From a virus, in the IMG/VR virus record IMGVR_UViG_3300042924_000897, positions 1-22,146 of that record: a DNA stretch of 22,146 nt. One strand, 5' to 3'. Under the pieces are notes generated by a model. It did not search any database and had not been told where the DNA came from. It was given only the letters and a program-made list of their open reading frames with translations. A program made the translations under genes and the position numbers. Shown piece after piece: positions 17,209 through 22,146 of this stretch. Positions within the stretch are counted from its first letter, which is position 1. Each line of letters starts with the position of its first letter.

Positions 17209-17315
17209 ATATCGCGCCCTCCACGCGCACATCGCCAGTTAGGGGCTGGCACAGAACGCCATTCGCGGTCACGGTTAGCCTTGAGCTTGCGGAACAGGTC
17301 TATGATCCATCTCAC
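17202..17315 (-). CDS. 37-aa basic micro-protein
   Basis: GTG at 17315 shares GTGA with the stop of the upstream gene. GGAGG lies 7 bases before it, and the stop overlaps the next start by 7 bases, so the frame exactly fills what would otherwise be a gap of about 100 bases. The product MRWIIDLFRKLKANRDREWR ends in VPAPNWRCARGGRDIW. It has an N-terminal amphipathic helix (WIIDLFRKLKA) and a net positive charge with four Trp. It could be a small membrane-surface or nucleic-acid-binding peptide; no family is recognised. Confidence 0.5.
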   Translation of the reverse strand: MRWIIDLFRKLKANRDREWRSVPAPNWRCARGGRDIW

Positions 17316-17863
17316 GGTAGTGCCTCCACGCTGTAGTTGGTACTAGGTGACTTCCAGCCTCGCGGTATTTCGCCATGTAAGTGCGAAGGGTCTATCCAAC
17401 GCAATTTATTGTTGGGCATGGCAACCCATTGGCCGCTATCTAACGCGATGATGTGGTGATCCTTGGATTGGTCAGGTATTTCCGACCAACCGCCATTGGC
17501 CCAAAACACGCTAAACAGGTACACGCCTGACCGCAGCACCTTGTCGCGGCAATATGCCTCTACTCGGTGGTTACGCAGGAACTGCATCTCACGCACCTCG
17601 CAGAACCGGCTAAAACTGTCCCACCACACGCACACGTTAAGCGGTAGCGGGTCGCAGGGCTTGGAGCAGATCGCGTGTATAGGCATCCTTGCCCACATTG
17701 CACCACATTCCAGCATCACGCTGAACATAGGCGCTCGCATCGGCTCGGCTCTAAAGCCTAGGACGGTGCAGAGGGTGAAGTCGCCGTGACCCTGCTCTTG
17801 GTCGTACAGAAATTCGTTTCGGATATAGGCCGTGGTGTACGGCGTATCTACCATAAAACTCAT
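17312..17863 (-). CDS. 183-aa hypothetical protein
   Basis: The protein starts MSFMVDTPYTTAYIRNEFLY, with GAGGGG five bases before the start and an ATGA overlap with the YbcO-like gene upstream. It is rich in Trp and Cys (about eight Cys; C-x7-C in MPIHAICSKPCDPLPLNVCV, and VWWDSFSRF). The sequence looks like a compact alpha/beta cytosolic protein, without membrane segments or catalytic motifs that I recognise. I believe similar proteins occur in early regions of other phages as hypotheticals. It sits between recombination genes and two micro-genes. Function unknown. Confidence 0.65.
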   Translation of the reverse strand: MSFMVDTPYTTAYIRNEFLYDQEQGHGDFTLCTVLGFRAEPMRAPMFSVMLECGAMWARMPIHAICSKPCDPLPLNVCVWWDSFSRFCEVREMQFLRNHRVEAYCRDKVLRSGVYLFSVFWANGGWSEIPDQSKDHHIIALDSGQWVAMPNNKLRWIDPSHLHGEIPRGWKSPSTNYSVEALP

Positions 17864-18144
17864 ACGATCCCCTCTTTGCGTAGTTGTGCGATGGTTCGCA
17901 CCATGCCCTCAAGGTGAGCTAGGCGCACATAGTCGCGGTCAAGATCGGTACGGAATCGGCGGTCTACAGCGTCGTGACACGCAGAACACGCCCACGCACC
18001 GAGTAAGTCATCAGCCTTGATGCCCATACCGCTGACCCCTGATAGGCGTATGTGCGCCAATACGGTCGTTGCGCTGTTGTGGTTGCAGATGCCGGGCAAG
18101 CGCACCATGCAGCCTCGGCCTTTGGCTTCATTCCGTAGGTTCAT
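17860..18144 (-). CDS. YbcO/DUF1364-family putative nuclease
   Basis: The start is ATG 18144, with GGAG 7 bases upstream; a TTG at 18180 lacks a ribosome site. The 94-residue product reads MNLRNEAKGRGCMVRLPGIC, then TTVLAHIRLSGVSGMGIKAD, LLGAWACSACHDAVDRR and LAHLEGMVRTIAQLRKEG. This is the DUF1364 (YbcO) pattern of lambdoid nin-type regions: Cys12 and Cys20, His31, and C53-x2-C56-H57 with Asp61. These suggest a zinc-bound HNH-like nuclease acting on recombination intermediates. Length fits the family (about 96). It overlaps the NinB-like gene by 17 bases, as expected for nin-region partners. Confidence 0.85.
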   Translation of the reverse strand: MNLRNEAKGRGCMVRLPGICNHNSATTVLAHIRLSGVSGMGIKADDLLGAWACSACHDAVDRRFRTDLDRDYVRLAHLEGMVRTIAQLRKEGIV

Positions 18145-18544
18145 GCAAAGGCTCCGGTAGTGGGCCAATGCCCAATTCAATGCATTTGTTTTCTATACCG
18201 TATAGGTACTCTGTAAATTCTTCTTTGGTCATGCGCGATGTACGTTTAAGCGGTCGCAAACGTTTTCTGCCAAATCCTTCTAGCGTTTCCCAACCCCAGA
18301 TTTCGCCCAACAGCCATTCGTGAATATCGTCTCGCGTAAAGCCTCGCAAACTTTCTCCAGCGGCTTCCATGATCATGGGATAAACCACTCCAAAGAGATA
18401 CCGCGACTGCTGATTGGTTTTAGGTTTTTTCCACTCGGTTACTTCCACCGACCACACACGGCGAGGGTCTAACCCTTGCGTCATGCGCGTTATGGCAACC
18501 GCCATTTGCTCGGGCGTCGTGCCTTTGGGAAATATGCGTTTCAA
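18128..18544 (-). CDS. NinB-like recombination protein
   Basis: The product contains RRVWSVEVTEWKKPKTNQQS, then RYLFGVVYPMIMEAAGESLR, FTRDDIHEWLLGEIWGWETL, RPLKRTSRMTKEEFTEYLYG and LGIGPLPEP. This order matches the NinB family, which binds single-stranded DNA and assists phage recombination. The start is uncertain. TTG 18544 gives a TTGA overlap with the glycosyltransferase stop and has GAGG 7 bases upstream; GTG 18562 would add six residues but has no ribosome site. The TTG version is 138 residues. The YbcO-like neighbour downstream supports a nin-type module. Confidence 0.72.
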   Translation of the reverse strand: MKRIFPKGTTPEQMAVAITRMTQGLDPRRVWSVEVTEWKKPKTNQQSRYLFGVVYPMIMEAAGESLRGFTRDDIHEWLLGEIWGWETLEGFGRKRLRPLKRTSRMTKEEFTEYLYGIENKCIELGIGPLPEPLHEPTE

Positions 18545-19676: not shown

Positions 19677-19938
19677 CCCAGTTTTTCTCGTTTATCTCGG
19701 GTTTCTTCGTGGCTTGATGTTGCGGTTCGCCACCGCGTGACAACTTGCCCTCACCCTTGGGTTCAATCTTGATGCTCATGTACTTGTCGCCTGTCTTTTG
19801 CGAGGACTTGATCCAAGCCGACAGGTTGTAGTCCACGTTGTTGATGACTGCCGAGCCACGGTAGTCGGGGCGCTTCTCGTTGCCGTCCTTGTTGTTCTTA
19901 AACAGAACGCCTTTCATGTTCGGATCGTAATCAGGCAC
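19654..19938 (-). CDS. Small SSB-like protein with acidic C-terminal tip
   Basis: The gene starts at GTG 19938, with AAGGAG 7 bases upstream; an ATG 21 bases later has no ribosome site. The 94-residue product contains MKGVLFKNNKDGNEKRPDYR, GSAVINNVDYNLSAWIKSSQ and TGDKYMSIKI, an OB- or DUF736-like beta pattern. A Pro/Gln/Lys linker leads to the end NWDDLDTPF. That ending closely resembles the acidic DDDIPF tip by which SSB proteins recruit partners. It overlaps the ERF gene by 8 bases. An ssDNA-binding role next to an annealase is well supported by context but not proven. Confidence 0.65.
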   Translation of the reverse strand: MPDYDPNMKGVLFKNNKDGNEKRPDYRGSAVINNVDYNLSAWIKSSQKTGDKYMSIKIEPKGEGKLSRGGEPQHQATKKPEINEKNWDDLDTPF

Positions 19939-20626
19939 GGTGTTTCTCCTTGGTCATTTGAATGTACTTCTTGATGGCTGACCGCTCCTTTGCCGTCATG
20001 GCATTGGCTACGGCGATATAAAGGTCGTGGTCAGGGTTGACGAGTTCGTGGACGGCCAACACCGCTAATGCGATGTCGTATTCGTCGGCGTCCATGTCAA
20101 ACGCGGCACGGAACTGGTTGACGAAAATATCCCGTTTGGCGGGGTCTACGTCCTTACCCATGTCACCCCTAGGGTCATTGGTAAAGCCCGCCTTCGGAGC
20201 CACCTCATGCGTCTGGGCGTCAGCGTCGTTGTCACCCTCGGTCGGGATGCAAAACGTCTGAAACGCAGCGTACTTATAAGCGGCTGACATGGCCTTGTTG
20301 CTGGCCTTATCGCCCGAGTCCATCGCCTCACCTACCGTCACGACCGTGTGCTTGCTCGCATCTTCGGCGGCTACAAAGTCAAACTCTACGGTCAGCGTGA
20401 CGTAGAACAGCGCCGTGCCTTGGCGGTTCTGGCGCTCAATAACCTGTCGGTCAGTCACGCGGGGCAGGATGCACAAGCCATGCTTTGACAGCAGCGGCGA
20501 AAGCGCACCGTACACTTGGTCAATGCCACGGAAAGCGTAGCCCTGCGACTGGTTCTTGCTCTCCTTGCTAATGCCAATCTTGGATAACTCGGCGGTAACC
20601 GCCGCAATCTTTTCATAAACCTTCAT
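19931..20626 (-). CDS. ERF-family single-strand annealing recombinase
   Basis: The 231-residue protein starts MKVYEKIAAVTAELSKIGIS at ATG 20626, with AAGGAG 7 bases upstream. The ERF signature is clear: QGYAFRGIDQVYGALSPLLS (28-47), the FYVTLTVEFDF strand, and GEAMDSGDKASNKAMSAAYK (99-118) followed by YAAFQTFCIPTEGD. These proteins anneal complementary single strands in phage recombination and genome circularisation. The C-terminal part (about 170-231) is helical and less conserved. It lies in operon with the SSB-like protein and nucleases downstream and two micro-genes upstream, one of which overlaps it by 14 bases. Confidence 0.9.
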   Translation of the reverse strand: MKVYEKIAAVTAELSKIGISKESKNQSQGYAFRGIDQVYGALSPLLSKHGLCILPRVTDRQVIERQNRQGTALFYVTLTVEFDFVAAEDASKHTVVTVGEAMDSGDKASNKAMSAAYKYAAFQTFCIPTEGDNDADAQTHEVAPKAGFTNDPRGDMGKDVDPAKRDIFVNQFRAAFDMDADEYDIALAVLAVHELVNPDHDLYIAVANAMTAKERSAIKKYIQMTKEKHRA

Positions 20627-20744: not shown

Positions 20745-20856
20745 GGCTGGCTCGCTCCTCTGCCGGGGTGCAGCCACCGTCGCCGCACGGGTCGTTGATG
20801 GCAGCTATGGCGTATAGCGCCACAATGAGGATGGCTTGGGGTAACCAGCGGCTCAC
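20734..20856 (-). CDS. 40-aa single-TM micro-protein
   Basis: GTG 20856 forms GTGA with the stop of the 92-residue gene upstream, and GGGGAG lies 7 bases before it. The product MSRWLPQAILIVALYAIAAI continues NDPCGDGGCTPAEERASHAR. It has one hydrophobic segment (about 4-20), then a small Cys-Gly loop (C24, C29) and a charged tail. It may be a small inner-membrane peptide. The stop lies 11 bases inside the next micro-gene. No family is recognised. Confidence 0.5.
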   Translation of the reverse strand: MSRWLPQAILIVALYAIAAINDPCGDGGCTPAEERASHAR

Positions 20857-21131
20857 AGGTCGTCTCCCCACGGGCCGTTCATCAGCGCGTCGTTGGTGGC
20901 GATTTCCTCAAGCTCAAAGATGGCATCTGCGCCGAGGTCACAAATGTCTAGCTTGATGTCGTGGTTAAGCGATGAGGCGGCCTTGTCGTTATCAAGGAAG
21001 ATACCGATCAGGTCGGCAGCCTCAAGGATGATGCCGCCATCTAGGTCTTGGGTGTACTCCACGCGCACCTCAAACTTGTTAGAGAGGGCGTAGAACGTAC
21101 CGAAACCGTGGAATGTGTCTTTGCGAGGCAT
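20853..21131 (-). CDS. 92-aa acidic hypothetical protein
   Basis: The start is ATG 21131, with AGGAG 8 bases upstream; an in-frame ATG at 21158 lacks a site. The product begins MPRKDTFHGFGTFYALSNKF and is strongly acidic in the second half (LDICDLGADAIFELEEIATN, and a final NGPWGDDL). Predicted structure is beta strands followed by an acidic helix. No motif is recognised. An operator-like repeat (21170-21183) and a terminator-like hairpin (21184-21204) lie between it and the first leftward gene, so its expression may be separately controlled. Confidence 0.6.
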   Translation of the reverse strand: MPRKDTFHGFGTFYALSNKFEVRVEYTQDLDGGIILEAADLIGIFLDNDKAASSLNHDIKLDICDLGADAIFELEEIATNDALMNGPWGDDL

Positions 21132-21169
21132 ATCTGTTGCTCCTGTTGTGTTTATCAACGTGGGGTAGA

Positions 21170-21183
21170 TTAACCAAAGTAAA
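21170..21183. promoter_or_regulatory. Operator-like site 3, TTAAC-caaa-GTAAA
   Basis: This site matches nine of ten arm bases of TTAAC-N4-GTTAA, the inverted repeat on the -10 box of the main leftward promoter. It lies about 40 bases upstream of the 92-residue gene, next to the terminator-like hairpin. No convincing promoter is visible there, so its effect is unclear. Confidence 0.4.
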
Positions 21184-21204
21184 GGCGGGTTGGAAGTCCC
21201 CGCC
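21184..21204 (-). terminator. Possible leftward terminator or attenuator
   Basis: On the minus strand GGCGGG, a nine-base loop and CCCGCC form a 6-bp GC stem, followed by TTTACTTT. It lies 8 bases after the stop of the first leftward gene and before the 92-residue gene. It would stop or reduce transcription unless there is antitermination or a second promoter. Confidence 0.45.
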
Positions 21205-21212
21205 GTGCTTTG

Positions 21213-21521
21213 TCAGAAATTGTAGTCGTAGAACTTTTGGGGCTTGTCGGCGAGGGCATAACGATTGCCGTGCGCATCTTTCCAGCCTTTCTTGCCGAGG
21301 CGAATACGCACCGACTTGGCCGACTCGTCGCTGCTAATAACCCAGCGTTGTTCGCTCTGGTTGATAACTGTGCCGCAAAAACCGCCCGGAACAAAATCAG
21401 GCTTCCATGACTGATCGCGTTCGGCATTCATGGCGCGAATCTCAAGGGTCTTGTCGCTGATACGGCGAACAATCTCAAACGGGTTGATGTCGCTGTAGCC
21501 AATGTGATTTGCGTAATTCAT
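21213..21521 (-). CDS. Conserved 102-aa phage protein, first leftward gene
   Basis: The protein starts MNYANHIGYSDINPFEIVRR, with AGGAAG 7 bases upstream. It continues SWKPDFVPGGFCGTVINQSE, QRWVISSDESAKSVRIRLG and ends YALADKPQKFYDYNF. I recognise this as a well-conserved small family of phages and plasmids without known function; the FVPGGF and KFYDYNF segments are its most constant parts. The fold is probably a small beta barrel. It is the promoter-proximal gene of the leftward operon, with a leader of about 40 bases from the predicted start site. High conservation and first position suggest an early host-interaction or DNA-metabolism role, but this is inference. Confidence 0.75.
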   Translation of the reverse strand: MNYANHIGYSDINPFEIVRRISDKTLEIRAMNAERDQSWKPDFVPGGFCGTVINQSEQRWVISSDESAKSVRIRLGKKGWKDAHGNRYALADKPQKFYDYNF

Positions 21522-21569
21522 GTGTTTGCTTCCTATCTGTGTTAGCAGGTCATTAGTGACCGTGATGAA

Positions 21570-21600
21570 ATCTTAACCTATGTTAATAGGCGAGTGTCAA
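21570..21600 (-). promoter_or_regulatory. Leftward early promoter
   Basis: On the minus strand a perfect -35 TTGACA (21600-21595) is followed after 19 bases by TAAGAT (21575-21570). Transcription would start near 21563, about 40 bases before the first leftward gene. The 19-base spacer is longer than ideal. Inverted repeats overlap the -35 box, the spacer and the -10 box, as expected for a repressed promoter. Confidence 0.6.
21573..21586. promoter_or_regulatory. Operator-like site 1, TTAAC-ctat-GTTAA
   Basis: This is a perfect inverted repeat with 5-base arms and a 4-base centre, lying on the -10 box of the leftward promoter. The same pattern recurs at 21645-21658 and 21170-21183. It is a likely binding site for a small dimeric HTH protein such as the Cro-like product encoded at 21668. 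Confidence 0.5.
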
Positions 21601-21604
21601 CACT
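21593..21604. promoter_or_regulatory. Inverted repeat AGTGT-ca-ACACT over the -35 box
   Basis: A perfect 5-2-5 palindrome covers the TTGACA box of the leftward promoter. Two other perfect 5-4-5 repeats lie close by: CCTAT-gtta-ATAGG (21577-21590) in the spacer and GGTCA-ttag-TGACC (21548-21561) at the predicted start site. Their sequences differ from each other, so more than one protein, or RNA structure in the leader, may be involved. Confidence 0.4.
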
Positions 21605-21631
21605 TATTCCAACGACCATAGTGCGGATACG

Positions 21632-21661
21632 TTGCCGAGGGGCTGTAACGCAAGTTAAAAT
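21632..21661 (+). promoter_or_regulatory. Rightward promoter of the Cro-like gene
   Basis: TTGCCG (21632-21637), an 18-base spacer and TAAAAT (21656-21661) give a good promoter on the plus strand. The expected start is 6-8 bases after the -10 box, at or next to the A of the Cro-like start codon (21668). No Shine-Dalgarno precedes that codon, so the message may be leaderless. Confidence 0.55.
21645..21658. promoter_or_regulatory. Operator-like site 2, GTAAC-gcaa-GTTAA
   Basis: This site matches nine of ten arm bases of the perfect site at 21573-21586 and has the same 4-base centre length. It overlaps the -10 box of the rightward promoter. With site 1 it would let one protein control both divergent promoters, including its own. 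Confidence 0.5.
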
Positions 21662-21667
21662 GGCAAA

Positions 21668-21835
21668 ATGGACATCAAATCAGCATTAAAGAAGTTTGGT
21701 TCCCCGAGCGGTATCGCACGGGCGTTTGGCGTTAAACCCCCGGCTGTATCCAGATGGATACGTAACGGGGCGATCCCGCAACAAAGGCTGTGGCAGTACA
21801 AGGCTGGGCTGGTTAAAGCGCCAAAAGGGCGTTAG
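21668..21835 (+). CDS. Cro-like HTH repressor (55 aa)
   Basis: This short product reads MDIKSALKKFGSPSGIARAF, then GVKPPAVSRWIRNGAIPQQR and ends LVKAPKGR. It has the Cro/YdaS helix-turn-helix: helix 2 at about 13-20 (SPSGIARAF), turn G-V-K, recognition helix at about 24-31 (PPAVSRWI), and the typical GAIPQQRLWQY helix. It should bind DNA as a dimer and repress early promoters. The gene is divergent from the leftward operon, as cro-type genes are, and ends shortly before a strong hairpin. No Shine-Dalgarno is present. No CI-type partner lies in the window, so a temperate lifestyle is not shown. Confidence 0.85.
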   Translation: MDIKSALKKFGSPSGIARAFGVKPPAVSRWIRNGAIPQQRLWQYKAGLVKAPKGR

Positions 21836-21855
21836 TGGACGCCAGAAACGACAAA

Positions 21856-21869
21856 CCCCCTTTCGGGGG
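21856..21869 (+). terminator. Terminator after the Cro-like gene
   Basis: CCCCC, loop TTTC, GGGGG, preceded by AAA and followed by CTT on the plus strand. It lies 20 bases after the Cro-like stop. Read on the minus strand the same hairpin is followed by TTTGTCGTTT, so it may act in both directions. Confidence 0.65.
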
Positions 21870-21877
21870 CTTGACGC

Positions 21878-21892
21878 GGCCGGGGGACGGCC
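21878..21892. repeat. GC-rich hairpin GGCCG-gggga-CGGCC
   Basis: A perfect 5-5-5 inverted repeat lies eight bases after the terminator hairpin. There is no T-tract. On the minus strand it would lie within the short transcript predicted from the promoter at 21925-21954. Confidence 0.5.
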
Positions 21893-21924
21893 ATACGCTT
21901 CGGGTAGTTGCAGAGCGTGGAAGA

Positions 21925-21954
21925 ATCTTAACAGCGCCGTTCTGGCCCTGTCAA
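21925..21954 (-). promoter_or_regulatory. Second leftward promoter
   Basis: On the minus strand TTGACA (21954-21949), an 18-base spacer and TAAGAT (21930-21925) form a strong-looking promoter. It shares the -35 box and the extended GTTAAGAT -10 region with the early promoter at 21570-21600. Transcription would start near 21918 and meet the hairpin at 21856-21869 after about 60 bases. Confidence 0.5.
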
Positions 21955-22146
21955 AAACCCCACGCAGTTCCCTTGGTATGGAACTAAAAATCTACCAGCG
22001 GAGGGCCGGTCGTTTGGATCGGGCTGGACACCGCTTACCAAAGTCCAGCGGGCCTAAACACCGTGGCTATACGGGCATAGGCTTGGCCTCGCTGCCTTCC
22101 GCAGAAGTGGGGGGTAGGGGGGCCATTCCCGGGCTTCCGAGCATTG

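Follow-up and report, generated by a model that had tools for sequence, protein, structure and literature searches.

The three copies of the inverted repeat TTAAC-N4-GTTAA in the phage DNA analyzed here are very probably the operators of a 55-aa Cro protein, by which it would repress its own gene and the leftward early genes. The DNA, hereafter the window, is a complete IMG/VR record of 22,146 bases. Our reading is based on sequence comparison with related phages, which revealed the sites and how well they are conserved, the register they keep with the putative promoters, and that they co-vary with the recognition helix of Cro.

Three Motif Copies in the Early Control Region

The motif occurred three times in the window with at most one mismatch, and no other copies were observed (table 1). 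The earlier note had given the positions and match counts of these copies exactly, with an expectation of fewer than 0.02 such matches in about 490 bases. When the 509 bases of 21159-21667 were dinucleotide-shuffled 20,000 times, the mean was 0.019 sites, and no shuffle contained three copies. In look-elsewhere shuffles, in which any 5-base arm and any gap of 0-8 were allowed, three copies were reached in 0 of 500. The motif is real and far from chance.

Table 1. Features of the control region and of the neighboring early genes, in window coordinates
Feature	Position	Strand	Description
O_L	21573..21586	.	TTAACCTATGTTAA; perfect (10/10) match, on the leftward promoter
O_R	21645..21658	.	GTAACGCAAGTTAA; 9/10 match, on the rightward promoter
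Third putative operator	21170..21183	.	TTAACCAAAGTAAA; 9/10 match, before the second leftward gene
P_L -35 box	21595..21600	-	TTGACA; conserved in relatives
P_L -10 box	21570..21575	-	TAAGAT; 19-bp spacer; its first three bases coincide with the final three of O_L
P_R -35 box	21632..21637	+	TTGCCG
P_R -10 box	21656..21661	+	TAAAAT; 6 nt separate its end from the cro ATG
cro	21668..21835	+	55-aa P22-type Cro; recognition helix at about residues 24-33, with Arg29
First leftward gene	21213..21521	-	102 aa, phrog_19789
Second leftward gene	20853..21131	-	92 aa, MPRKDTFHGFGTFYAL... (MPRKDTF...)
Candidate -10 box of the weak second leftward promoter	21167..21172	-	TAATCT; overlaps the operator in the register seen at P_L and P_R
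Terminator-like hairpin	21184..21204	-	GGCGGG-N9-CCCGCC; located where the first leftward gene ends and where the second promoter would have its -35 box
ERF single-strand annealing protein gene	19931..20626	-	Farther along the leftward early genes

The motif was not equally frequent outside the control region. A near-identical 34-kb phage carried the same three sites only, and whole contigs of 34-38 kb with this Cro type had two or three sites each, all of them in the control region or before the second leftward gene. Scanning viral contigs identified 29 close relatives, and the search of relatives proposed in the earlier note bore out the enrichment: across 30 loci, 55 sites fell within the 7.3 kb directly upstream of cro, and the other 160 kb held 33, mostly the conserved third site. 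Among 389 loci, every perfect match to the motif lay directly ahead of a gene for this Cro type.

The 55-aa protein matched the P22_Cro profile (PF14549) with 33.8 bits, above the curated cutoff of 30.2; its score against the YdaS profile (PF15943), 28.4 bits, was under the curated cutoff of 30. Dyad operators with 5-bp halves spaced 4 bp apart at the Cro protein's own promoter, a trait of PF14549, were present here as well. The structure model (pLDDT 79) consisted of four helices, among which the helix of residues 24-33 was assigned as the recognition helix. The top-ranked structural matches were all Cro proteins, with E-values of about 0.03 or worse for this short protein, and the best-ranked solved folds, at these weak E-values, were N15 Cro in its free and operator-bound forms, Xfaso 1 Cro, and P22 Cro. 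No matches were obtained in a tblastn search of cultured phages with the window Cro, and two bacterial genome scans yielded either no match or three distant HTH proteins that lacked the sites; thus, no prophage or host was identified.

Probable Operators Overlap Both Divergent Promoters

As the earlier note had observed, the two main copies overlap the leftward TAAGAT and rightward TAAAAT boxes. They do so in the same register, with the operator ending on the third base of the -10 box at each promoter, and because of this shared overlap occlusion of P_L and P_R is likely; the register on the -10 box also points to repression rather than activation. One could instead suppose that the motif is no more than an extended promoter element, in which the TTAANNT of the -10 region has acquired its symmetry by chance and no repressor is involved, and the three shared bases in both directions would fit such an element. 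However, the distal half-site, which lies outside the -10 box and is not needed by the promoter, was conserved as well as the proximal one (C5, 36/36 and 40/40; A4, 35/36 and 40/40), and relatives with another recognition helix changed the inner bases to TTAAG...CTTAA while the promoter was kept. We therefore find the promoter-element explanation hardly credible, and operators overlapping promoters remain our preferred reading.

In 68 of 72 cases, O_R began 22-26 nt ahead of the cro ATG. Because of the short distance between the P_R -10 box and the ATG, and because most relatives have no Shine-Dalgarno sequence before cro, the cro mRNA is probably leaderless, as is known for PY54 (PMC4488713). 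The distances between O_L and O_R seemed to cluster near multiples of 10.5 bp, but this signal vanished when they were collapsed to independent distance classes (p = 0.6); thus, DNA looping is not claimed.

Two further inverted repeats were observed in this region. One, GGTCA-N4-TGACC (21549-21562, minus strand), lies where the leftward mRNA is predicted to begin, a place at which many relatives have a hairpin of other sequence (CCAGCA/TGCTGG and others); it is perhaps an mRNA-stabilizing stem-loop. The other, TACATA-N10-TATGTA or similar, lies between O_L and O_R upstream of P_R in relatives L007, L009, L012, L014, L019, L021-L023, and L025, with related forms in L028-L031 and L043, and is absent from the window; it is possibly the site of another regulator.

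Sites Follow the Recognition Helix of Cro

In the upstream regions of the relatives, the motif lay over the leftward -10 box, and in nearly all of them over the rightward -10 box too, either exact or with a weaker distal half; this placement was kept although the first leftward gene varies among the phages. With Cro proteins carrying the helix xxPAVSRW, the motif was found in all 72 distinct upstream regions, 67 of which contained two or more copies. A motif-blind enumeration of 1024 half-sites with gaps of 2-7 ranked TTAAC with gap 4 first by far: this combination occurred in 39 of 40 non-redundant regions and was present in two or more copies in 35, versus 4 for the runner-up. With AVSQWR Cro proteins, by contrast, the top half-site was TTAAG with gap 4 (28/29 regions), and TTAAC was seen in 1/29. 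The resulting split, xxPAVSRW with TTAAC versus AVSQWR with TTAAG-N4-CTTAA, was 38:0 versus 0:27, counts that overstate independence and would give too small a formal p-value because the relatives share ancestry; the separation itself is nonetheless clear. The neighboring gene did not account for the sites: homologues of the 102-aa protein had them beside an xxPAVSRW Cro, and lacked them beside a Cro with the helix ITSQAVSQW or where no xxPAVSRW Cro was found adjacent. These patterns argue for the 55-aa HTH protein as the reader of the sites, as the earlier note had predicted.

An automatic test of an Arg/Gln rule, using dyad calls on 16 cultured-phage Cro proteins, was not significant, and the calls were noisy; on inspection of the 16 regions, the inner base was C with several Arg/Lys Cro proteins and G with several Gln Cro proteins, which we regard as a lead only. 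Rules linking the Cro recognition helix to the operator half-site are attributed to Hall and co-workers (2005) in the passages of PMC4488713 and PMC4997575 that cite them. EBPR podovirus 1 and Pseudanabaena phage Pan3 were considered as relatives and rejected, being without these sites at the regulator or divergent region.

In lambda, CI and Cro share operators. Since lambdoid phages use one operator set for two repressors, the main reader of the sites could be another regulator, either one encoded by the host or a phage repressor of the CI type, and a gene for the latter might have been missed in records whose completeness is not certified. However, no S24 repressor was found in 31 records and no tyrosine integrase (PF00589) in 36, records that may be incomplete; the HTH_3 matches in the window's group were weak matches to Cro itself; only a few phages with the helix VSRPAVSRW had one further weak HTH match; and the sites co-vary with the Cro helix. 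We consider another main reader quite improbable and retain Cro in that role.

Cro without a Detected CI Partner

Resolvase-type recombinases were likewise not found in the 13 records searched for them. The gene divergent from cro encodes the phrog_19789 protein, not a CI- or C2-type repressor, and there is one operator per promoter, versus three between the divergent promoters of the lambda/P22-type switch. Many contigs of the group cluster at 33.4-36.6 kb, and the uncultivated phage MW202520 is circular. Because no CI or integrase was found, the system would work as the Cro half of the switch on its own, and we do not claim membership in the lambda/P22 CI-Cro immunity switch; the group seems to be one of environmental phages without the usual partner repressor. 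A broader proposal, to which we give an even chance, is that a large group of environmental podoviruses of about 34 kb relies on Cro by itself for early shut-off and has neither CI nor integrase, with successive early genes served by their own Cro-operated promoters and with a natural switch from TTAAG to TTAAC accompanying the Gln to Arg change in the helix.

The Third Site

Two small leftward genes precede ERF and other early genes, and the third site lies before the second of them. This gene probably starts not at TTG 21158 but at ATG 21131, the better-placed start, which follows a Shine-Dalgarno sequence. The site is conserved in position and matched 9/10 in nearly all relatives, and several relatives have a full TTGACA-17-TTAACAT promoter beneath it. 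In the window, it adjoins the terminator-like hairpin, its outer half-site is degenerate, and its promoter is weak with a poor -35 box; the hairpin in place of the -35 box, together with the degenerate outer half-site, is shared by the window and a subset of the relatives (L009, L019, L021-L023, and L025).

These weaknesses would also be expected if the site were a nonfunctional remnant, a former O_L that stayed in place as the 102-aa cassette arrived with its own copy of the control region; in L018, this second gene borders directly on the control region and the matching site is its O_L. Such an origin without present function is possible but doubtful, because a useless site would be expected to decay, yet the 9/10 match is kept in nearly all relatives, several of them with the full promoter. 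We regard the third site as an operator by descent, one that probably, though not certainly, still works in this phage; control of the second leftward gene by Cro in this phage is less certain.

Relatives L028-L031 have one or two extra TTTAC-N4-GTTAA sites, at about -1133 and +2600 from the cro start, which suggests more Cro-controlled promoters. Farther along the leftward region (17312-18180, minus strand), the window has genes for a YbcO-type nuclease (PF07102) and for a protein with a match to phrog_3704, labeled ferredoxin (moron category) by PHROGs.

Region Downstream of cro

The region of about 320 nt that separates cro from a rightward HNH endonuclease gene (21836-22146 in the window; L004:3166-3491, up to the HNH gene) is conserved and apparently structured, with at least two sequence classes. 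Compensatory changes were seen in 12 of 65 pairs in class A, to which the window belongs, and in 19 of 79 pairs in class B (L008, L018, L019, L021, and L028-L030), which comprises only 7 sequences. The region had no match among Rfam families and is possibly an undescribed structured RNA. It also contains a leftward promoter-like TTGACA-18-TAAGAT (21925-21954, minus strand), followed by a terminator-like hairpin (21852-21873, minus strand); together they would yield a short transcript that stops at the 3' end of cro and somewhat resembles the lambda OOP RNA. A rightward TTGACG-17-TACGCT, conserved in relatives, faces this promoter-like sequence. The hairpin directly after cro was rejected as a cro terminator, since it fails the scan criteria and its T-rich tail serves leftward transcription.

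Proposed Circuit and Its Meaning

We propose that Cro would bind as a dimer, each recognition helix reading one TTAAC half-site. At O_R and O_L, it would block RNA polymerase by covering, in P_R and P_L respectively, the spacer together with the upstream portion of the -10 box. As Cro accumulates, it would limit its own, probably leaderless, mRNA through O_R and shut P_L at O_L, turning the leftward early genes off; the third site may bring about the same repression of the second leftward gene, if this gene is served by its own promoter.

The novelty is modest, this being a classic kind of control, here with a useful natural specificity pair and in an apparently CI-less setting. Many short-tailed environmental phage contigs have this control region, and no description of its regulation was found in the literature searched. 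The paired Arg/TTAAC and Gln/TTAAG sets offer a clean natural test of a joint change in repressor and operator specificity, and a Cro retained without detectable CI would reveal a role in the lytic cycle apart from lysogeny.

Comparison with Known Systems

The Cro of P22 (NC_002371) belongs to the same Pfam family as the window Cro, and the operators annotated in its OR, TTAAGTCATCTTAA and TTAAGTGTTCTTTA, have the geometry seen here, with 5-bp halves 4 bp apart; in both phages, cro lies directly to the right of its operator and promoter. The half-site is TTAAG-N4-CTTAA in P22 versus TTAAC here, and the same helix position is Gln in P22 versus Arg here. P22 has OR1-3 where the window has one operator per promoter, its divergent gene is that of the C2 repressor whereas here it belongs to an early-gene operon, and c1 follows cro in P22 but not here.

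The same layout as in the window was found in MW202520 (cta1H496, 33.6 kb), which has ERF and SSB leftward and a small Cro rightward, together with P22-like coat and portal proteins; neither integrase nor S24 repressor was found in it. It differs in its helix, PPAVSQW, and its TTAAG-type operators. N15 Cro, solved bound to its operator (PDB 6ON0), and the Cro of telomere phage PY54 are small and all-helical, as the window Cro may be from its structure model. N15 Cro is the top structural match of the window Cro, at a weak E-value, and PY54 has a single operator per Cro target and a leaderless cro mRNA (PMC4488713). Both PY54 and N15 have a CI/CB prophage repressor, whereas none was found here, and PY54 Cro was reported not to repress its own synthesis (PMC4488713), whereas in the window O_R lies on the cro promoter.
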